64,000 nucleotides of DNA. Origin: Chitinophaga sp. 180180018-3. Lineage in GTDB: Bacteria; Bacteroidota; Bacteroidia; Chitinophagales; Chitinophagaceae. The notes beneath the pieces were generated by a model, which saw nothing but the letters and a program-made list of their open reading frames with translations, did no database searches and was not told the DNA's origin. Where the stretch lies: positions 6,658,501-6,722,500 of the forward strand of contig NZ_CP140772.1 in NCBI RefSeq assembly GCF_037893185.1, given 5' to 3'. Shown here piece after piece: positions 4,797 to 64,000 of the stretch. Position numbers and translations under genes: made by a program. The first letter of the stretch is position 1. Every line of letters begins with the position of its first letter.

Positions 4797-5261
4797 ATGA
4801 AAAAGCTGTTATTAACCGGCGGCCTGTTTTTGCTGGCCTTTATTGGTATTTCCACTAACATGAACGGTCAAACGAAGAAATATCCATCGCTGAACCATAT
4901 GGCCCTATATGTCGTGAATCTGGAGCGAAGCACTGTTTTCTACCGCGATATAGTTGGTCTGGAACCGATGGATGAGCCATTTAAAGATGGCAGGCACAGT
5001 TGGTTTAAGGTAGGTTCGCATAGCCAGGTACATATTATTTCCGGAGCTGCTGCTGCCGTGGCACACGACAAAAACACGCACCTCTGCTTCAGCGTTCCAT
5101 CCATGAGCGAATTCGTACCGGTATTGAAGAAAAATAACATCCCTTTTGAAGACTGGCCAGGCAAAGCCGGCTCCATTAATAAACGGGTAGATGGCGTACA
5201 GCAGATCTATTTCAAGGATCCGGATGGGTATTGGATAGAGATTAATGACGATAAATATTAG
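4797..5261 (+). CDS. Secreted VOC/glyoxalase-fold protein
   Basis: A 154-residue protein of the vicinal oxygen chelate superfamily. After a signal peptide (about 1-24) comes one complete VOC module: an opening strand with a metal-ligand His (LNHMALYVVNLE), the F-Y-R-D-I-V-G-L element, a second His in THLCFSV, and a closing strand with a ligand Glu (PDGYWIEIND). These match the metal-binding positions of glyoxalase/bleomycin-resistance/dioxygenase proteins. Most members are cytoplasmic, so the export signal is unusual and points to a periplasmic enzyme of unknown substrate. The spacing from the preceding gene is 45 bp, so co-transcription is possible. Confidence 0.85.
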   Translation: MKKLLLTGGLFLLAFIGISTNMNGQTKKYPSLNHMALYVVNLERSTVFYRDIVGLEPMDEPFKDGRHSWFKVGSHSQVHIISGAAAAVAHDKNTHLCFSVPSMSEFVPVLKKNNIPFEDWPGKAGSINKRVDGVQQIYFKDPDGYWIEINDDKY

Positions 5262-48261: not shown

Positions 48262-49131
48262 ATGATATCAAATATTCAAAAAGAAAAGGCTGAAAAATTT
48301 CTGAAATTTCATCATGACGAAGAAATGTTGGTGCTGTTAAATTCATGGGATATCGGAAGTTCCAGGTTAATTGAGGCATGCGGCTATAAAGCCATTGCAA
48401 CAACCAGCATGGGGATGGCTGCAGCGCTGGGCTATCCTGATTGCCAGATAATGCAATTGTCAGAGCTGCTTGAAATTGTAAAAGGAATTGTAAACGCAGT
48501 AAAAGCTCCGGTAACGGTGGATATAGAAGCGGGGTATGGAAACAATCTGGATGAAATAATTGATTCGGTTAAAAAGATAATTGCTACAGGCATTGTTGGA
48601 ATAAATATCGAAGACAGTATTAATTTAAGTCCGACGTTAATTGACGAGATAGAATTTTGTGAAAGAATAGCGGCTATCCGTTCCTTGTCAGACTCACTCG
48701 GCTTTCATTTAGTCATTAATGCAAGAACAGACTCCTTCTATACTTCCTCCGGCTCTCCTAAAGAAAAATTATCGGAATCAATAAGGCGGGGTAACAAATA
48801 CCGGGAAGCTGGGGCAGACTGCATATTTGTTCAACCTGTATGGGAAAAAGCAACGATTGCTACATTAGTGAAGGAGATTAATGCTCCTATTAATATTCTT
48901 TCAAATCCTACCATTGCCGATGGGATACCTCCCTCTATTCATGAATTACAGGATATGGGCGTTGCGAGATTAAGCCTGGGTTCAAGTTTGATGAAAGCCA
49001 CCCTGGCCTTGATTAAAAAAGTAGCGGATGAAATATCCACTCAGGGAACCAGTAGTATTTTATTGGAGGCAATGACACCGGTTAGTGAAACGAAGTTGGC
49101 TTATATGATGGCGACAGGGTTGGGGAAATAA
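48262..49131 (+). CDS. Isocitrate lyase/PEP mutase family protein
   Basis: A 289-residue TIM-barrel enzyme of the isocitrate lyase/phosphoenolpyruvate mutase superfamily. Typical segments are LVLLNSWDIGSSRLIEACGY, ATTSMGMAAALGY, VTVDIEAGYG (metal-binding Asp/Glu region), GINIED and LVINARTDSFY. The family includes 2-methylisocitrate lyase, oxaloacetate decarboxylase and PEP mutase. The short form without a Cys-rich KKCGH loop is closest to generic family members of unknown substrate. No phosphonate genes are nearby. It is a single gene that ends 6 bp before the mnmE-like repeat at 49137. Confidence 0.9.
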   Translation: MISNIQKEKAEKFLKFHHDEEMLVLLNSWDIGSSRLIEACGYKAIATTSMGMAAALGYPDCQIMQLSELLEIVKGIVNAVKAPVTVDIEAGYGNNLDEIIDSVKKIIATGIVGINIEDSINLSPTLIDEIEFCERIAAIRSLSDSLGFHLVINARTDSFYTSSGSPKEKLSESIRRGNKYREAGADCIFVQPVWEKATIATLVKEINAPINILSNPTIADGIPPSIHELQDMGVARLSLGSSLMKATLALIKKVADEISTQGTSSILLEAMTPVSETKLAYMMATGLGK

Positions 49132-49136
49132 TGAGG

Positions 49137-49154
49137 TTACTTCCCGATACAGAA
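49137..49154 (-). other. Candidate attachment site, distal copy (att)
   Basis: On the minus strand this reads TTCTGTATCGGGAAGTAA, an 18-bp near-copy of the last codons of mnmE at 53962-53979 (16 of 18 identical, with a 14-bp exact core TGTATCGGGAAGTA). Translated, it is again a C-I-G-K-stop end. It closely resembles the trmE attachment site of SGI1-type genomic islands and marks the far end of the 4.8-kb insert. Confidence 0.7.
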
Positions 49155-49260
49155 AAATAAACACGTTGATTATCAATAATCTATATAACAAGAGGGACAG
49201 AAATTCAAGGGAATTAGTAGTAGATAGGTATCGGAAAATATCAGCGGGGGCTATTCTTCC

Positions 49261-50166
49261 TTAAGAGCTAACTTCAAGCTTATATCCTTTGCCACGAATA
49301 ACAACAATGGAAATATTGGGATCAGATTCCAGTTTTTTTCTGAGTTTTGATATGAACATATCAAGACTGCGGCCTACTATAACACCTTTATCTTCCCATA
49401 TCTCTTTTTGTAGCCTGCTTCTCTCTATTGTCTCGTTAGGAGAAGATGCGAAGATGTGCAACACACGGGTTTCAGTTTCGGTGAGATCAATGGTCTCTCC
49501 ATTTATTATGAGCTTACGATTTTTTTCATCGAACAACATTGAGCCTAAAGTGACCACACCAGTAGTGACTACACTAGTACTCTGATCATCAGGTAAAATC
49601 CGACGCGGTTTGGCAGACCTAAAAAATATAAAACCAACAAATGCTAAAAATGACAGGCTGCCCAAAATATATCCACTCTTTGCTGTATTTATTGCTGCCG
49701 GTTTAAATTTAATGTTGATCATGTAACATCCTTTGGGTTGCACTCTTCCCCTACAAGCTATAATATCATTCCTTTTATTGTTGGATATAGCGTATCCATA
49801 GGCTATACTGGAGTTGCTACAGTTCAGCACATTAACAACATAATCACTTGCGAAGGGGTCTTTGGCCAACAAACGCCGGGTAGTATTCATCAGCGAGTCC
49901 GGTTGAAAAGTAAGCTCATTCTCAAAGCTGATCTGGTATTCATTTTCGGCGATCTTTTTTACCGGAAGAACCCTTGATTTACTGTCGCCCGACTGCGTGA
50001 GGAGCTCATCTCCTATCTTCCGAAGCAAAACTTCCCTCCTGGCAATATCAAAGTCGTCACTGCCGGTCATAATGAAAGTCACGCATGTTACAGAGATCAA
50101 CAGGAGTAGTACCAATCCCCACAGGTATTTGCGTTTTCCGGAAAGTAGATTTCGACTGTAAAACAT
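49261..50166 (-). CDS. Membrane-anchored winged-helix regulator with periplasmic domain
   Basis: A 301-residue protein with a first membrane helix (about 14-34), a periplasmic domain (about 35-162) and a second helix (about 163-182). A cytoplasmic OmpR/PhoB-type winged helix closes it (about 205-300; IDLTETETRVLHIFASSPNE, then LDMFISKLRKKLESDP and VIRGKGYKL). ToxR/CadC proteins have the winged helix at the N-terminus with one membrane helix; here the order is reversed and there are two helices. The periplasmic part has a Cys pair (LNCSNSS and IACRGRVQPKGCY). It is divergent from the secreted-protein and propeller genes, its probable targets. Confidence 0.85.
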   Translation of the reverse strand: MFYSRNLLSGKRKYLWGLVLLLLISVTCVTFIMTGSDDFDIARREVLLRKIGDELLTQSGDSKSRVLPVKKIAENEYQISFENELTFQPDSLMNTTRRLLAKDPFASDYVVNVLNCSNSSIAYGYAISNNKRNDIIACRGRVQPKGCYMINIKFKPAAINTAKSGYILGSLSFLAFVGFIFFRSAKPRRILPDDQSTSVVTTGVVTLGSMLFDEKNRKLIINGETIDLTETETRVLHIFASSPNETIERSRLQKEIWEDKGVIVGRSLDMFISKLRKKLESDPNISIVVIRGKGYKLEVSS

Positions 50167-50241
50167 ACCATTTTACGATTTATTTACAAAGGTTACATTT
50201 TTATTTACAATCCAAATTCCTCCGGCTGGAATATATCAAAG

Positions 50242-50249
50242 TACTTTTG
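50242..50249 (+). promoter_or_regulatory. Candidate -7 promoter element
   Basis: TACTTTTG fits TAnnTTTG and lies about 80 bp before the chosen ATG at 50328. The -33 region has no clear TTG. It would drive the secreted-protein/propeller pair and lies close to the start of the divergent regulator gene, a good place for autoregulation. Confidence 0.4.
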
Positions 50250-50327
50250 TCGCACCAGCTTTGAAAGGATATGAAAAATAAAAAAAATGTCTTTTACGAA
50301 TCCATATCACTTAAATCAACAATAAAT

Positions 50328-50867
50328 ATGAAAAAAATTATCTATGCGTCGATCTTACCGCTGGTGGTGGTAAGCGGACTAATATTCGCTAATCGCGACA
50401 TTAAAAATGAAACTGCTAAAAGGCCAACCCCAAAACCGCTTACTGCTGCTGAAAGGGAAGCCGAAATGAAAAAATGGGAGGCTACCCCTGAAGGTATAAA
50501 GTACAAAAAATGGGTAGCTTCTCCCGAAGGTCAAAAGGTGTTTGCCGCTGCTGCTAAATTAAGGAAGAACATTAATGATTATACCAATATGGAGGCTGTT
50601 GTAACCTCTCTTTCTCTTCCGCCAGGGTCAAGATTAGGTTTCGGTGTGATGGCCAGGATCAATGGTGATGATTATATTGTAAAATTTGAGCCGGAAAAGT
50701 CTCAACTTGAGCAATTGCATAGCCTGAAAGTTAATGACAAAATAATCATAAGAAGCCATAACGTATCGCACGCCCCCAAGTATTCATACCCGATAATATC
50801 GGGCGAATATGTAGAACGGGATAGTAAAGTAATTTTTCAACGTGTCCCTCGCAAAGGCGCTTGCTAA
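50328..50867 (+). CDS. Small secreted protein with a duplicated TPEG/SPEG motif
   Basis: A 179-residue exported protein. The frame is open from 50271, but the Met at 50328 begins the signal peptide (MKKIIYASILPLVVVSGLIF) and is preferred. After a Pro/Lys/Thr-rich start, two tandem units KWEATPEGIKYKKW and WVASPEGQKV form a small helical repeat (about 45-75). A beta-rich C-terminal part follows (about 85-175; LGFGVMARINGDDYIVKFEP, NDKIIIRSHNVSHAP). No family is recognised. The propeller lipoprotein follows 11 bp later on the same strand, so the two are co-transcribed, divergent from the membrane regulator. Confidence 0.6.
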   Translation: MKKIIYASILPLVVVSGLIFANRDIKNETAKRPTPKPLTAAEREAEMKKWEATPEGIKYKKWVASPEGQKVFAAAAKLRKNINDYTNMEAVVTSLSLPPGSRLGFGVMARINGDDYIVKFEPEKSQLEQLHSLKVNDKIIIRSHNVSHAPKYSYPIISGEYVERDSKVIFQRVPRKGAC

Positions 50868-50878
50868 GCAAAGAAATT

Positions 50879-51904
50879 ATGAGATACCCACGCATTTACA
50901 CCTTGTTCCTGATGCTTGTCTTTCACACTTCCTGCGGACAAAACCGAACAAACGCACCACAAGATGATTTCAGTAAAGAGCACAATGGCTACTCCGAGTC
51001 TCAACTTAAAGAATTGGCTACCTCCAAGGTGCCCATGAGTCAGGTTCGGCATGTAAAGCAAGACAGAAACGGAGACATTTTGATTACTGCATCATGGGGT
51101 GGTGCTTTTCGCTACGATGGAAAATCGTTTACTAATCTCACAAGTAGTAAAATAGGTGCGCGCAGGTTCTGGGATGTTCTGGAAGATCAACACGGAAACC
51201 TTTGGTTAGCTTCCACTGATTCCGGGGTTTATCATTACAATGGGAAAACCTTTCAACATTTTACAACCAGCGAGGGACTTGCCAGCAATCTGGTTATGTG
51301 TATTTATGAAGATAGCGCCGGCATTATTTGGTTCGGCGGAGCTGGATTAACCCGCTACGATGGAAAATCTTTTCAAAATTTTACAACAAAAGACGGACTG
51401 CCCAATAATGATATTAGGGCTATCATGGAAGACAAAACCGGGAAATTATGGATTGCCACAGGGGACGGGCCTTGTTTTTATGATGGAAAAACATTTACCG
51501 TTTTAAAGAACAAAGATGGCAAATCGTTTAAGAACGTTTGGTCAATAATCGAAGATAAAAAAGGAAGCATTTGGTTTGGCGACGTTGCTGGTCTTTGGCG
51601 CTATGACGGCGGCACCTTTACTAAGGTGTCGCAGAGGTGGGCTTATGCAATAATCGAAGATAAAAAAGGAAACATCTGGACTACTGGTGCAGTAAATTCG
51701 AATGCCTGGGCACTTTCACGTTATGATGCAAAGTCCTTGTACAATAAAATGCCCACTGTAACAGAAATTACGTCAGGACCACCAGCTTTTTTGGGACTTT
51801 TGGAAGCTAACGATGGAAGTATTTGGTTTGGATCTGGAGGTGGCGTGTATCGTTACGATGGAAAGACCATCACGGACTTTAAAAGTGCAGCCGGTCAAAA
51901 ATAA
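50879..51904 (+). CDS. Two-component-regulator propeller lipoprotein (sensor propeller without kinase)
   Basis: A 341-residue lipoprotein (lipobox HTSC, Cys19). The frame reaches a TTG at 50861, but the ATG at 50879 gives the lipoprotein signal. Seven repeats of the Reg_prop type follow, each with a core like AIMEDKTGKLWIATGDG and an R-Y-D-G-K-S/T-F strand (FRYDGKSF, YHYNGKTF, TRYDGKSF, FYDGKTF, WRYDGGTF, SRYDAKSL, YRYDGKT). They make one closed seven-bladed propeller. In hybrid two-component systems two such propellers form the periplasmic sensor of a kinase; here no kinase domain is attached. It ends at a strong hairpin. Confidence 0.88.
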   Translation: MRYPRIYTLFLMLVFHTSCGQNRTNAPQDDFSKEHNGYSESQLKELATSKVPMSQVRHVKQDRNGDILITASWGGAFRYDGKSFTNLTSSKIGARRFWDVLEDQHGNLWLASTDSGVYHYNGKTFQHFTTSEGLASNLVMCIYEDSAGIIWFGGAGLTRYDGKSFQNFTTKDGLPNNDIRAIMEDKTGKLWIATGDGPCFYDGKTFTVLKNKDGKSFKNVWSIIEDKKGSIWFGDVAGLWRYDGGTFTKVSQRWAYAIIEDKKGNIWTTGAVNSNAWALSRYDAKSLYNKMPTVTEITSGPPAFLGLLEANDGSIWFGSGGGVYRYDGKTITDFKSAAGQK

Positions 51905-51945
51905 AGTGTATTGCTGATTTTGAAGGTCAAAATCAGCAATACACT
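51905..51945 (+). terminator. Intrinsic-type terminator hairpin
   Basis: Arms of 17 nt (51905-51921 and 51929-51945) pair perfectly around a 7-nt loop, starting immediately after the propeller gene's stop codon and followed by a T-rich tract. It separates the propeller transcript from the serine hydrolase gene. Confidence 0.8.
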
Positions 51946-52057
51946 CATTTATATTTCTTTTTATAACTCGCTTATAAGGAGAAACAACACCGTTGCGTAC
52001 GTTTAATATAATCTTATGTACAAAGGATTCTTTACACCACTTTTTTAATATATCACT

Positions 52058-53539
52058 ATGGCCAAACACACAAAAGCCTTTATAACATTTTTTTCATCTC
52101 TATTCTTTTGTATCCTAACAAGCAATCTATCTGCACAAAACAATACAAGCTATTCTAAAGAGGTACAGGCAAAAATCAAAAAGTTTGAAAACAATTTAGG
52201 TTTATGGGTGCAAATAGGGAATCAGCAATTTTCACTTGCCGACAGAATGAAAAGTAATCATGTAAACGGAGTAAGCATTGCATTGATAAAAGATTATAAA
52301 ATTGAGTGGGCAAAAGGATATGGTTGGGCAGATAGTGCAGAACAGCGGCCAGTTACAACAAATACATTATTTCAAGCAGGTTCAATTAGTAAATCATTAA
52401 ACGGGGTTGGTATTTTAAAATTAGTACAGGAAGGAAAATTGAACCTTGATTCAGATATTAATATTTATTTAAAATCATGGAAATTTCCTTATGACTCTCT
52501 ATCAAAAGGGAAAAAAATAACGATAGCAAATCTGTTAAGTCATACAGCAGGATTAACAGTACACGGATTTGACGGTTATGAAAAAGGAGATACCATACCT
52601 GCACTGATACAAATTTTAAATGGTGAAATGCCGGCCAACAGTAAAGCGATTCGGTCAATGTATGAGCCTTCTCTTAAATCTGAATATTCAGGTGGAGGAA
52701 CAACCATATCGCAGTTAATATTACAAGATGTAACAGGGCAACGGTACGATACATACATGTGGAACAACGTATTAAACCCAATGGAAATGAGTAATAGCTT
52801 TTATACCCAACCGCCGCCTATGGATAAAGAAAATTTACTAGCAACAGGTTATTATAATGATGGGAAAGAAGTGAAGGGGAAGTATCATATTTATCCCGAA
52901 CAAGCTGCTGCGGGCCTATGGACAAACCCTACAGATCTAGCTAAATATATTATAGAAACACAACTATCCTTACAAGGAAAAAGCAATAATGTACTTTCCC
53001 CAGAAACAACCAGGCTTAGATTGACCCCTTATATTGATAACTCAGCAGCATTAGGAGTGTTTATTATTAAAAAGGGAAATGAAAAATATTTTAACCATGA
53101 TGGCTCCGATGAAGGCTTTGTGGCTACATACTACGGCAGCATGGAAAATGGGAACGGAGCAGTAGTAATGGCAAATACCGATAATGGAAGCCTGTTAAGC
53201 GAAATAGTCAATTCCCTGGCTTCTGTTTATAACTGGAAAGATTTTTATACTCCGAAAATTAAAAAGGTTGTTACCGTAAATAACGAAATATTGAAATCGT
53301 ACGTAGGAAACTACAAACTACATAGAGATACACTTAATGTTACTCTTGAAAAAGAAGATTTGGTGATAAGGTTGAACAGTAAAACGAAATACAAAATTTA
53401 TTTTACTTCTGATACTGATTTTTTTATGCTGGAAATAGCTGGATCGGAACAAAGATTTACAAAAGACAAAAACCAAAAGATAAATGGCTTTGAGATTAAT
53501 GATAATGGTTATAAAATGCAAGCTGTGAAAATAGAATAA
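52058..53539 (+). CDS. Secreted serine hydrolase, beta-lactamase/class C penicillin-binding-protein family
   Basis: A 493-residue exported protein (signal peptide ending SNLSAQ). The catalytic SxxK is S109-I-S-K112 (QAGSISKSLNG). A tyrosine motif is present as EYSGGG (Y-S-G instead of Y-x-N), and the third motif region is HDGSDEGF near residue 350. A C-terminal domain (about 405-490) resembles the lipocalin-like or DUF3471-type tail often found in these hydrolases. Members are peptidases, esterases or D-aminopeptidases rather than resistance enzymes; the substrate is unknown. The gene is clearly A+T-rich and lies inside the mnmE-bounded segment. Confidence 0.88.
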   Translation: MAKHTKAFITFFSSLFFCILTSNLSAQNNTSYSKEVQAKIKKFENNLGLWVQIGNQQFSLADRMKSNHVNGVSIALIKDYKIEWAKGYGWADSAEQRPVTTNTLFQAGSISKSLNGVGILKLVQEGKLNLDSDINIYLKSWKFPYDSLSKGKKITIANLLSHTAGLTVHGFDGYEKGDTIPALIQILNGEMPANSKAIRSMYEPSLKSEYSGGGTTISQLILQDVTGQRYDTYMWNNVLNPMEMSNSFYTQPPPMDKENLLATGYYNDGKEVKGKYHIYPEQAAAGLWTNPTDLAKYIIETQLSLQGKSNNVLSPETTRLRLTPYIDNSAALGVFIIKKGNEKYFNHDGSDEGFVATYYGSMENGNGAVVMANTDNGSLLSEIVNSLASVYNWKDFYTPKIKKVVTVNNEILKSYVGNYKLHRDTLNVTLEKEDLVIRLNSKTKYKIYFTSDTDFFMLEIAGSEQRFTKDKNQKINGFEINDNGYKMQAVKIE

Positions 53540-53961
53540 CTAAGCCACCGCCAACATCGGTTCGTCATACGTCATTGTAAAAACGAACCTTCAGCAAAAA
53601 TTTTCAGTTTTTTGCCCAGCGAACTTTAACCAAAACAACAGCTTTTCGGCATATTACAAAAATAAACACAAAGCTAGTGCGCAATCAATGTGTATAAGAA
53701 ATAGCACGGTTCGTCGTAACTATAATTGAAATAACGCAATCACTAAACCCTTGGGGGATTTTAAAGTTAATGATGGAAGTATTGGACTAATAAGGGATAG
53801 TATAACCGATTCTCTCTCAAGAACTGATTATTCGTCCCTCTGGATGTTTTGAAAATCAATGATCTAGAGGGACAAAATTGAAACAAAATAGGGGGCATTT
53901 TTTTAATTATTATTCACCAAATATGTGTATGACTGATTTTCATATACTTAAACACACGAAG
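53540..53961. other. A+T-rich intergenic region at the mnmE-proximal island end
   Basis: No gene is seen. Features: a short inverted repeat GTCCCTCT/AGAGGGAC (53834-53841 and 53866-53873) and two copies of CGGTTCGTC (about 53559 and 53709). The AGAGGGAC copy together with its following bases is repeated inside the other end of the insert at 49191. These may be recombinase arm sites or remnants of a lost integration module. Confidence 0.5.
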
Positions 53962-53979
53962 CTACTTCCCGATACAAAA
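53962..53979 (-). other. Candidate attachment site within the mnmE 3' end (att)
   Basis: The last six codons of mnmE including its stop, read on the minus strand as TTTTGTATCGGGAAGTAG, are nearly repeated at 49137-49154. The 3' end of trmE/mnmE encodes the conserved C-I/L/V-G-K end and is the known integration site of SGI1-related islands, which restore the gene end on insertion. Confidence 0.7.
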
Positions 53980-55344
53980 CTTACTAAATATATAATCCAA
54001 CCTATCCTCATTCGTCACCTCTCCCGTTATTTCACCTAAATAATGCAAACAAAGCCTGATATCAAGCGCCAATAAATCCCCCGGCAAACCATTATCCATC
54101 CCCTGTTTCACATCCTGCAGTGATTTCAACACCTCCTGCAGCGCAGCATGATGACGGGCATTTGTAACAATAGTATCCTCCGTATTAACATCTCCCGCTA
54201 TCACTTTACTTACCAGCGTATCCTTCAGCTCCTGAATATGCGCGTGATTCCGGGCAGAGATCAACAATATCCCCGGTACTCCTGCGAATTTACTGCGTAC
54301 TGCATCTTCTCCGGTAACATCAATCTTATTACCTACCAGCAGGTAATTCACATGCTCTGCTTCGAAAGCAGCAATCTGTTTACGTATATCCGACTCCGTT
54401 AGTTCATTCACATCAAACAAATAAACCACTACTCCTGCTTCACGGATTTTCTCCATTGTCTTCTGTACGCCGATACTCTCAATCGTATCAACGCTTTCCC
54501 GGATGCCCGCCGTATCTATCAGACGAAACAAGATACCATCGATGTTCAGTACTTCTTCAATAGTGTCGCGGGTAGTACCCGCTATATCGCTTACAATGGC
54601 CCTGTTTTCATTCAATAAGGTATTCAGCAGGGTTGACTTCCCCGCGTTCGGTTTCCCGACTATAGCGGTATTTACACCGTTTTTAATGACGTTTCCCATA
54701 CGGAATGAATCGATCAGATGTCGAACCACGCCGGAAGCACTCGAAACGAGATCGTAAAAACGGGTTCTATCCGCAAACTCCACATCTTCCTGACTAAAAT
54801 CCAGTTCCAGTTCAATCAGTGCGGAAAAGGTGATCAGTTGTTCGCGCAGGGCATGCAGCTCTTTCGAAAAACCACCCCGCATTTGCTGCATGGCAGTCTG
54901 ATGGGAAGCAGCGGAATTACTGGCGATAAGATCTGCAACAGATTCTGCCTGGGTAAGGTCCAGTTTCCCGTTCAGGAAGGCACGCTGGGTGAACTCGCCG
55001 GGTTTAGCCAGGCGGGCGCCGGCCCTGATGGTAGCATCTATGATCTGTTGTTGAATATATGGTGAACCATGGCAGGATATTTCTATAACATCTTCTCCGG
55101 TATAAGAGCGTGGCCCTTTGTAGAGGCTCACTACTACTTCATCTATCACCTGTTCATCAGCTACAATGCTCCCGAAATGAAGCGTATGACTGGGCTGTTG
55201 GGTCAGGTCTTTTGCGGGGAACAGGCTGTTGCAGATGGTATAGGCCTCCGGACCACTTAACCTGATAACAGCTATAGCCCCAAGTCCCGGAGCAGTTGCC
55301 ACTGCTACTATCGTATCATCGAATCCTGTTAGTTTACCCAGCAT
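53962..55344 (-). CDS. mnmE: tRNA uridine-5-carboxymethylaminomethyl modification GTPase MnmE (TrmE)
   Basis: A 460-residue GTPase that, with MnmG, installs the cmnm5/nm5 group on the wobble uridine of certain tRNAs. An N-terminal tetrahydrofolate-binding domain (about 1-120) with GPRSYTGEDVIEISCHGS is followed by a helical domain interrupted by the G domain. G motifs: GKPNAGKSTLLN near residue 230, DTAGIRES, NKID and SARN. The C-terminus ends FCIGK, containing the conserved Cys. Full family length. A TAAATTTG element 21 bp upstream of the ATG may be its -7 box. Its 3' end doubles as a probable island integration site. Confidence 0.97.
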   Translation of the reverse strand: MLGKLTGFDDTIVAVATAPGLGAIAVIRLSGPEAYTICNSLFPAKDLTQQPSHTLHFGSIVADEQVIDEVVVSLYKGPRSYTGEDVIEISCHGSPYIQQQIIDATIRAGARLAKPGEFTQRAFLNGKLDLTQAESVADLIASNSAASHQTAMQQMRGGFSKELHALREQLITFSALIELELDFSQEDVEFADRTRFYDLVSSASGVVRHLIDSFRMGNVIKNGVNTAIVGKPNAGKSTLLNTLLNENRAIVSDIAGTTRDTIEEVLNIDGILFRLIDTAGIRESVDTIESIGVQKTMEKIREAGVVVYLFDVNELTESDIRKQIAAFEAEHVNYLLVGNKIDVTGEDAVRSKFAGVPGILLISARNHAHIQELKDTLVSKVIAGDVNTEDTIVTNARHHAALQEVLKSLQDVKQGMDNGLPGDLLALDIRLCLHYLGEITGEVTNEDRLDYIFSKFCIGK

Positions 55345-63261: not shown

Positions 63262-63271
63262 CTTAATAAGT

Positions 63272-63383
<112 letters not shown>

Positions 63384-63475
63384 ATCTTTGTTTACTATTG
63401 CAGCAAACCCAATAAGATAGACATACCGGGAAAATTAAGTTGTATTCAGTGTTATCTTACGATAACGTAACATTA

Positions 63476-64000
<525 letters not shown>

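Follow-up and report, generated by a model that had tools for sequence, protein, structure and literature searches.

The 3′ end of mnmE (trmE), the gene of a tRNA-modification GTPase, is occupied in the soil bacterium Chitinophaga sp. 180180018-3 by a 4.8-kb unit of four genes that lies between two nearly identical copies of the last codons of mnmE. The unit is part of the window—the whole stretch of 64,000 nucleotides that was analysed (contig NZ_CP140772.1, positions 6,658,501 to 6,722,500 of the forward strand). It very probably represents an integrase-less genomic cassette flanked by attachment (att) sites, similar to a cis-mobilisable element (CIME), at an integration hotspot formed by the mnmE 3′ end. 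In window coordinates, the locus reads as follows from mnmE to the distal flank; here and below, G and L numbers denote genomes and loci of the comparison.

53962-55344, reverse strand: mnmE, 460 aa, the target gene, left intact (Pfam MnmE_helical, TrmE_N, MMR_HSR1)
53962-53979, reverse strand: proximal att copy, the terminal 18 bp of mnmE, TTTTGTATCGGGAAGTAG, encoding F-C-I-G-K-stop (sequence and genome-wide pattern search)
53540-53961, no strand: left arm; a hairpin of terminator type lies at ~53831-53876 (folding z -2.66)
52058-53539, forward strand: cargo gene for a serine hydrolase of beta-lactamase fold (PF00144), 493 aa (Pfam), putatively exported from the look of its N-terminus
51905-51945, forward strand: perfect 19-bp inverted repeat 3′ of the propeller gene, resembling an intrinsic terminator (z -8.68)
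50879-51904, forward strand: cargo gene for a propeller of the two-component-regulator type (Reg_prop, Pfam), lipoprotein-like by eye
50271-50867, forward strand: cargo gene c11, divergent from the regulator gene; small protein of unassigned function, without a Pfam family, that looks exported
49261-50166, reverse strand: cargo gene c14 for a regulator whose C-terminal DNA-binding domain is of OmpR type (Trans_reg_C, Pfam)
49155-49260, no strand: right arm, from the regulator stop to the distal att copy; alignment shows it conserved in G005 and in part also in G012 and G020
49137-49154, reverse strand: distal att copy, TTCTGTATCGGGAAGTAA (sequence and genome-wide pattern search; G005 and G012 have it equally placed with respect to the regulator gene)
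48262-49131, forward strand: chromosomal flank with a gene of the phosphoenolpyruvate (PEP) mutase/isocitrate lyase family (Pfam), which ends 5 bp from the distal att copy and is also found downstream of mnmE in G090 and G099

The repeat and the unit it encloses

The proximal and distal 18-mers are identical at 16 of 18 positions, share the exact 14-mer TGTATCGGGAAGTA, and the distal copy encodes C-I-G-K-stop—just as an initial annotation, made from the sequence of the window, had described them. Its view that a chance match is unlikely is borne out by pattern counts. Within the window, the exact 14-mer is found at both att copies and at no third site; with up to two mismatches allowed, there are 3 matches, compared with 0.40 on average in shuffled sequence. 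A search of the complete genome (8.13 Mb) for the degenerate FCIGK-stop pattern TTYTGYATHGGNAARTAR yields 2 matches, where 0.045 are expected naively, and these are the two att copies, both on one strand. The similarity between the mnmE end and the distal copy is confined to 22 nt.

Four accessory genes and no visible integrase had been reported between the copies, and both statements hold. A Pfam scan of the four cargo proteins reveals neither an integrase domain nor a relaxase, PADLOC defence-system models have no match among them, and the region between 47000 and 64000 contains no tRNA gene. The interval is indeed A+T-rich, with a GC content of 38.0% compared with 44.2% for the window, but not to an extreme degree, as 1-kb stretches of the window vary with a standard deviation of 4.0 points. 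A second short repeat inside each end is likewise present, as the 9-mer AGAGGGACA at 49191 and 53866. It was considered as an att feature and set aside: the 53866 copy forms one arm of the hairpin at ~53831-53876 and the 49191 copy stands alone, so that the repeat probably is a matter of the terminator-like hairpin rather than of integration. In G012 and G025, a counterpart of this hairpin directly follows the 3′ end of c11. The left end matches G012 at 77% over 152 bp, measured from where the terminal 18-mer begins.

The cargo appears to form one regulated unit, in which the OmpR-type regulator c14 is divergent from the genes of three probably exported proteins, c11, propeller, and hydrolase, and the hairpin would close the module before mnmE. 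Judged by eye from its hydrophobic stretches, c14 is likely membrane-anchored. The propeller gene has its first in-frame ATG at 50879 (the listed open reading frame starts at TTG 50861), and for c11 a start at about 50328 is likelier because many homologues have 179 aa. The serine hydrolase scores far under the NCBIfam cut-off for class C beta-lactamases (75.1 versus 415 bits).

Second att copies at mnmE in the genus

The comparison within the genus comprised 79 Chitinophaga genomes, in 78 of which—the window's genome included—the mnmE locus was read up to about 20 kb in the 3′ direction. G006 has no mnmE match at the threshold, and the flanks of G034, G077, and G098 are shorter at contig ends. 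Islands longer than the stretch read, typically about 19 kb, are missed by this survey. Many draft genomes have a contig end some 6-14 kb from mnmE, probably because of an rRNA operon; in the window, a 5S and large-subunit rRNA operon is located at 63270-64000, about 8 kb upstream of mnmE.

Downstream of mnmE, 16 copies of the FCIGK-stop sequence occur in 14 of the 78 loci (the window's included), all on the strand of mnmE, whereas in the 1.46 Mb searched the two controls, the opposite strand and the reversed pattern, gave 0 matches each. The exact 14-mer is seen 9 times (window included) against 0.007 expected from composition. The distance from the mnmE end to the second copy ranges from 4.8 kb in the window to 17.6 kb. 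AT-rich DNA often contains short repeats. Nevertheless, the probability that the repeat in the window arose by chance is negligible, as its two copies are the sole genome-wide matches, share a strand at a distance of 4.8 kb, and have their like at 14 of 78 loci but nowhere in the controls.

A decayed partial duplication of mnmE, which the initial annotation had itself brought up, would explain why the distal copy encodes C-I-G-K-stop. However, a similarity limited to 22 nt and the recurrence of the same junction type at the edges of unrelated inserts make this origin highly improbable.

The copies also show a polarity. Among the genomes with a second copy, 13 of 14 proximal copies have T as third base of the 18-mer (TTT); TTC is found in 1 of 14 proximal versus 13 of 16 distal copies (Fisher p 5.6e-5, with copies that are not independent owing to stacking and kinship). 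This is expected if the elements carry a TTC attP and the crossover falls right of the third base.

Different inserts at the same flanks

Some genomes have a common flank and different inserts at the site. G012 and G072 share a flank that starts at att and is 92% identical over 1153 bp beyond. At this same site, G012 bears a 1.9-kb c11-c14 insert between the att copies TTCTGTATCGGCAAGTAG and TTCTGTATTGAGGAAGTAA, of which the second is one base longer, and G072 bears a 12.1-kb integrase island. A second shared flank, at 70-72% identity, connects G025 (c11-c14), G093 (integrase island), and G060 (integrase island, att, then propeller and c11); in G093, the common flank starts some tens of bases past att. 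In G017, G019, G023, and G099, the distal att is followed by a further left arm, which amounts to tandem stacking. The larger islands with a tyrosine recombinase beside mnmE and the same repeats at their borders, named in the initial annotation as something to look for, are hence present in congeners.

Within about 5 kb 3′ of mnmE, c11-c14 is found in G000, G012, G020, G025, and G061, and parts of the module in G005, G029, G060, and G080. An integrase island lies between mnmE and the module remnants in G060 and G080, and left-arm sequence of integrase islands precedes the module in G005 and G061—an accretion as it is expected for CIMEs. Alignments with the unit of the window end at offsets 4841 in G005, 4844 in G012 (a weak alignment, E 2.7e-4), and 4827 in G020, where the distal att corresponds to 4826-4843; those of G025, G061, and the G080 remnant stop before the distal att, so that the right boundary is at att in 3 of 6.

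These data also bear on the possibility that c11-c14 are old chromosomal neighbours of mnmE, and that the distal repeat is the scar of another island. Their position near mnmE in five genomes, with parts in four more, fits such a history. An entering island, however, leaves its distal att between itself and the older genes, while att is found on the far side of c14 in the window, in G005, and in G012. Furthermore, c14 is present in 62 of 79 genomes but adjoins mnmE in only 5, with mostly unrelated flanks elsewhere, which renders an old neighbourhood improbable.

An integrase family next to mnmE in Bacteroidota

The tyrosine recombinases that adjoin mnmE in relatives carry Phage_integrase and Phage_int_SAM_5 domains in 10 of 10 proteins scanned and Arm-DNA-bind_5 in 9 of 10. 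With the G003 integrase as query, 18 matches at E≤1e-30 (query included) were obtained in 17 of 79 genomes; all 18 are located at most ~12 kb from mnmE and 15 of them within 3 kb (compared by eye). For comparison, 5 of 88 PF00589 matches in 9 genomes lie near mnmE, and all five belong to the mnmE-adjacent family.

An alignment of ten integrases was then searched against GTDB genome contigs, and the best 80 Bacteroidota loci were analysed, which include Chitinophaga, Pedobacter, Flavobacterium, Chryseobacterium, Bacteroides, Porphyromonas, and Dyadobacter. The C-terminus of mnmE lies 253-2403 bp upstream in the same orientation in 72 of these 80, in line with the earlier proposal of mnmE-targeting elements in Bacteroidota; among the others, L134 and L201 show FCIGK DNA near the contig start, and six show neither. 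As the ranking of these loci relied on their likeness to integrases beside mnmE, and at least six of the 80 (L127, L128, L129, L132, L135, and L156) are Chitinophaga genomes counted before, an even sample of 109 Bacteroidota genomes was added. It yielded 15 integrase matches at E≤1e-50 in 13 genomes. Four of these (G144, G153, G154, and G157), which are among the six best, lie 154-910 bp from mnmE (by eye); the other 11 are without demonstrated mnmE linkage, in G133 and G137 perhaps because mnmE lies near a contig end. Hence, it is the high-scoring members of the family that are specific for mnmE, and the phylum-wide prevalence of mnmE-linked integrases is a few per cent.

The islands differ in what else they carry. 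For an 8.8-kb unit 3′ of mnmE in G099 (L072), the proteins scanned are an integrase, an HTH_17 protein, and a D5-like primase-helicase; no relaxase was noticed among its remaining, unscanned proteins, and it is perhaps a phage satellite or plasmid-like element. The 12.1-kb island of G072 (L106) contains, by eye, a Dam-like methylase and a large DGQHR/DndB-like protein, possibly a defence module.

Origin of the unit

That an island lies at the mnmE 3′ end, as initially proposed, is supported: the unit behaves as an occupant of a site that integrase islands use. For its origin as an integrase-less, att-flanked cassette, the following course is the most likely. A tyrosine recombinase of an mnmE-specific family would have recombined the chromosomal mnmE end with an attP version of this terminus, TTCTGTATCGGGAAGTAA or a near variant, thereby keeping the MnmE reading frame and leaving a second copy at the far end. 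An integrase of this kind probably placed the unit, which either lost this integrase or arrived as passenger of an integrase-bearing island by accretion. It would now be immobile unless a helper arrives. A composite of island and module could in principle move as one piece, which might have happened here as well.

Several findings weigh against this origin. A profile search detects no mnmE-type integrase at mnmE in the genome of the window—the best match of the family profile has an E value of 2.6e-43, and the nearest match is ~380 kb from mnmE—and the unit contains neither an integrase gene of the Bacteroidota family nor a relic of one at E≤1e-4. An empty site with a single att and the PEP mutase gene directly after mnmE, which the initial annotation had anticipated, does not occur among the 78 loci. 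The two genes are 9.3 kb apart in G090 and 12.8 kb apart in G099, with other DNA between them (in G090 a stretch that by eye resembles a sigma-FecR-SusC/D operon and is common with G004 at 89% over 7.6 kb). Thus, the flank of the window has been rearranged too, and at least one further rearrangement is needed. In G020, G025, and G061, c11-c14 is found at most 4 kb 3′ of mnmE with no recognisable distal att.

The distribution of the cargo adds to these points. At E≤1e-30, c14 is matched in 62 of 79 genomes, and the identity reaches 64% or more in 53; 5 genomes have c14 next to mnmE. By eye, 48 genomes have c14 at ≥64% identity and none beside mnmE, and 17 of these loci were examined. Their flanks are mostly unrelated; this scattering suggests that the module moves by other routes too. 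Transfer through mnmE had been read from module nucleotide identity, which exceeds mnmE identity in all 8 pairs with the window. This argument was dropped, as c14 identity also exceeds mnmE identity for 17 of 17 copies elsewhere, where the excess is on average smaller but overlapping and amounts to under 2 points in four. Outliers are the G005 remnant (94% over 310 bp) and a hydrolase stretch in G020 (93% over 1611 bp). A single clade of mnmE-linked copies is not borne out by the c14 tree either, on which these copies need 3 changes and 26 of 500 shuffles do equally well.

Near the 17 c14 copies elsewhere, no att-like core with up to 1 mismatch and one with 2 (G002) was found, and the longest direct repeat does not exceed the shuffle maximum in 15 of 17, with G024 (14 versus 11) and G067 (13 versus 12) above it. 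The same script finds the 14-mer of the window (versus 12) and misses the imperfect repeat of G012.

The unit may be decayed or trans-mobilised, as the initial annotation cautiously put it. In a stronger form of the latter idea, the unit is a working non-autonomous element with attL, attR, and arm sites that is mobilised in trans by an mnmE-specific integrase. The unit of the window and that of G012 agree at both ends, over 152 bp at the left and at the att junction at the right, and neither carries an integrase; in nine module-bearing mnmE loci (G000, G005, G012, G020, G025, G029, G060, G061, and G080) the module contains no integrase of the family; next to it, G060 and G080 have an integrase island. 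On the other hand, the left arm of the window finds an alignment at just two of the 78 loci, G012, which lacks an integrase, and G025, where it covers the hairpin, and such an element would find neither a family integrase at mnmE in this genome nor a relaxase among its four genes. A working element is hence unlikely, and an integrase-less, CIME-like cassette remains the preferred explanation.

Relation to known elements

According to passages of two papers, the 3′ end of trmE/mnmE is the target of integrative and mobilisable elements (IMEs) of the SGI1/MGIVchHai6 family in Gammaproteobacteria (PMC8409611, PMC7449626), and tandem islands or arrays are described at this site in parts of the latter (PMC7449626). 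Like members of this family, the unit of the window occupies the 3′ end of mnmE and is flanked by an 18-bp direct repeat. The mnmE end of E. coli MG1655, TTCTGTATTGGTAAGTAA, is identical to the distal copy at 16 of 18 positions, presumably because the MnmE C-terminus is conserved. However, the phylum is a different one, and the Bacteroidota integrases carry Phage_int_SAM_5 and mostly Arm-DNA-bind_5. The unit itself is without SGI1-type int/xis, and neither the SGI1 core (mpsAB, traGHN-like genes, IncC-responsive regulation) nor mobilisation genes of SGI1 type were recognised among its four genes: c11 has no match in Pfam or NCBIfam, and the other three match non-SGI1 families. Of the initial label "SGI1-type", the target site is appropriate, while the gene content is not.

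A closer likeness exists to CIMEs, which are defined in the portion of PMC5704250 considered as att-flanked elements without integrase or transfer genes. The unit retains both copies of the mnmE end as attL and attR, is without integration and transfer genes, and remnants of its module stand beside integrase islands at mnmE in G060 and G080. It differs in that no integrase-bearing ancestor of the cassette was found among the relatives.

The canonical IMEs of Bacteroidota named in the same portion are NBU1, NBU2, Tn4555, and Tn4399 (PMC5704250). The mnmE element of G003 resembles these with an integrase, an HTH_17 excisionase-like gene, a Toprim primase, NikA/MobC, and a MobA-type relaxase, but is directed to the mnmE 3′ end; the unit of the window has none of these genes. 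From the mnmE-integrase elements of its own phylum, the unit differs by the absence of a family integrase inside, while target site and att sequence are the same. The G003 element (L061) measures 14.6 kb and further holds a RES-domain toxin/antitoxin-like pair, recognised by eye, the 145-aa protein being without a Pfam match.

The targets of mobile elements in Bacteroidota named in sections of PMC2873492 and PMC4755523 are tRNA genes and a 13-bp sequence. Among the matches listed in a search of open-licence PMC papers, none concerned mnmE-targeting elements in this phylum, and the family of mnmE-integrating enzymes is apparently undescribed in Bacteroidota.

A broader reading can be entertained tentatively, although we would sooner doubt than assume it: tyrosine integrases of Bacteroidota might share the FCIGK-stop end of mnmE as a dock, independent of the SGI1 lineage, and this dock might also serve integrase-less cassettes, in trans or on accreted islands. 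If so, mnmE would be a shared cargo port, and if the Bacteroidota integrases are unrelated to SGI1 Int, one gene tail would have been chosen convergently. Across Bacteroidota, an integrase family targets the same mnmE codons; islands are stacked in tandem at the site, and a cassette without integrase is found there too. Repeats of the FCIGK-stop sequence downstream of mnmE are hence an easy marker for mobile elements in this phylum, and integration tools for Chitinophaga or Flavobacterium could possibly make use of the mnmE end.

Further observations on the cargo genes

Away from mnmE, c14 is accompanied by c11, propeller, or hydrolase partners in varying combinations at mostly unrelated loci (L109-L125). 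In G062 and G076, it stands tail to tail with an rplT-like gene (by eye). For c11, 4284 homologues were retrieved; the best 120 of these are 75-97% identical and include Parapedobacter at 83%, a similarity across orders that is unusually high for a hypothetical protein.

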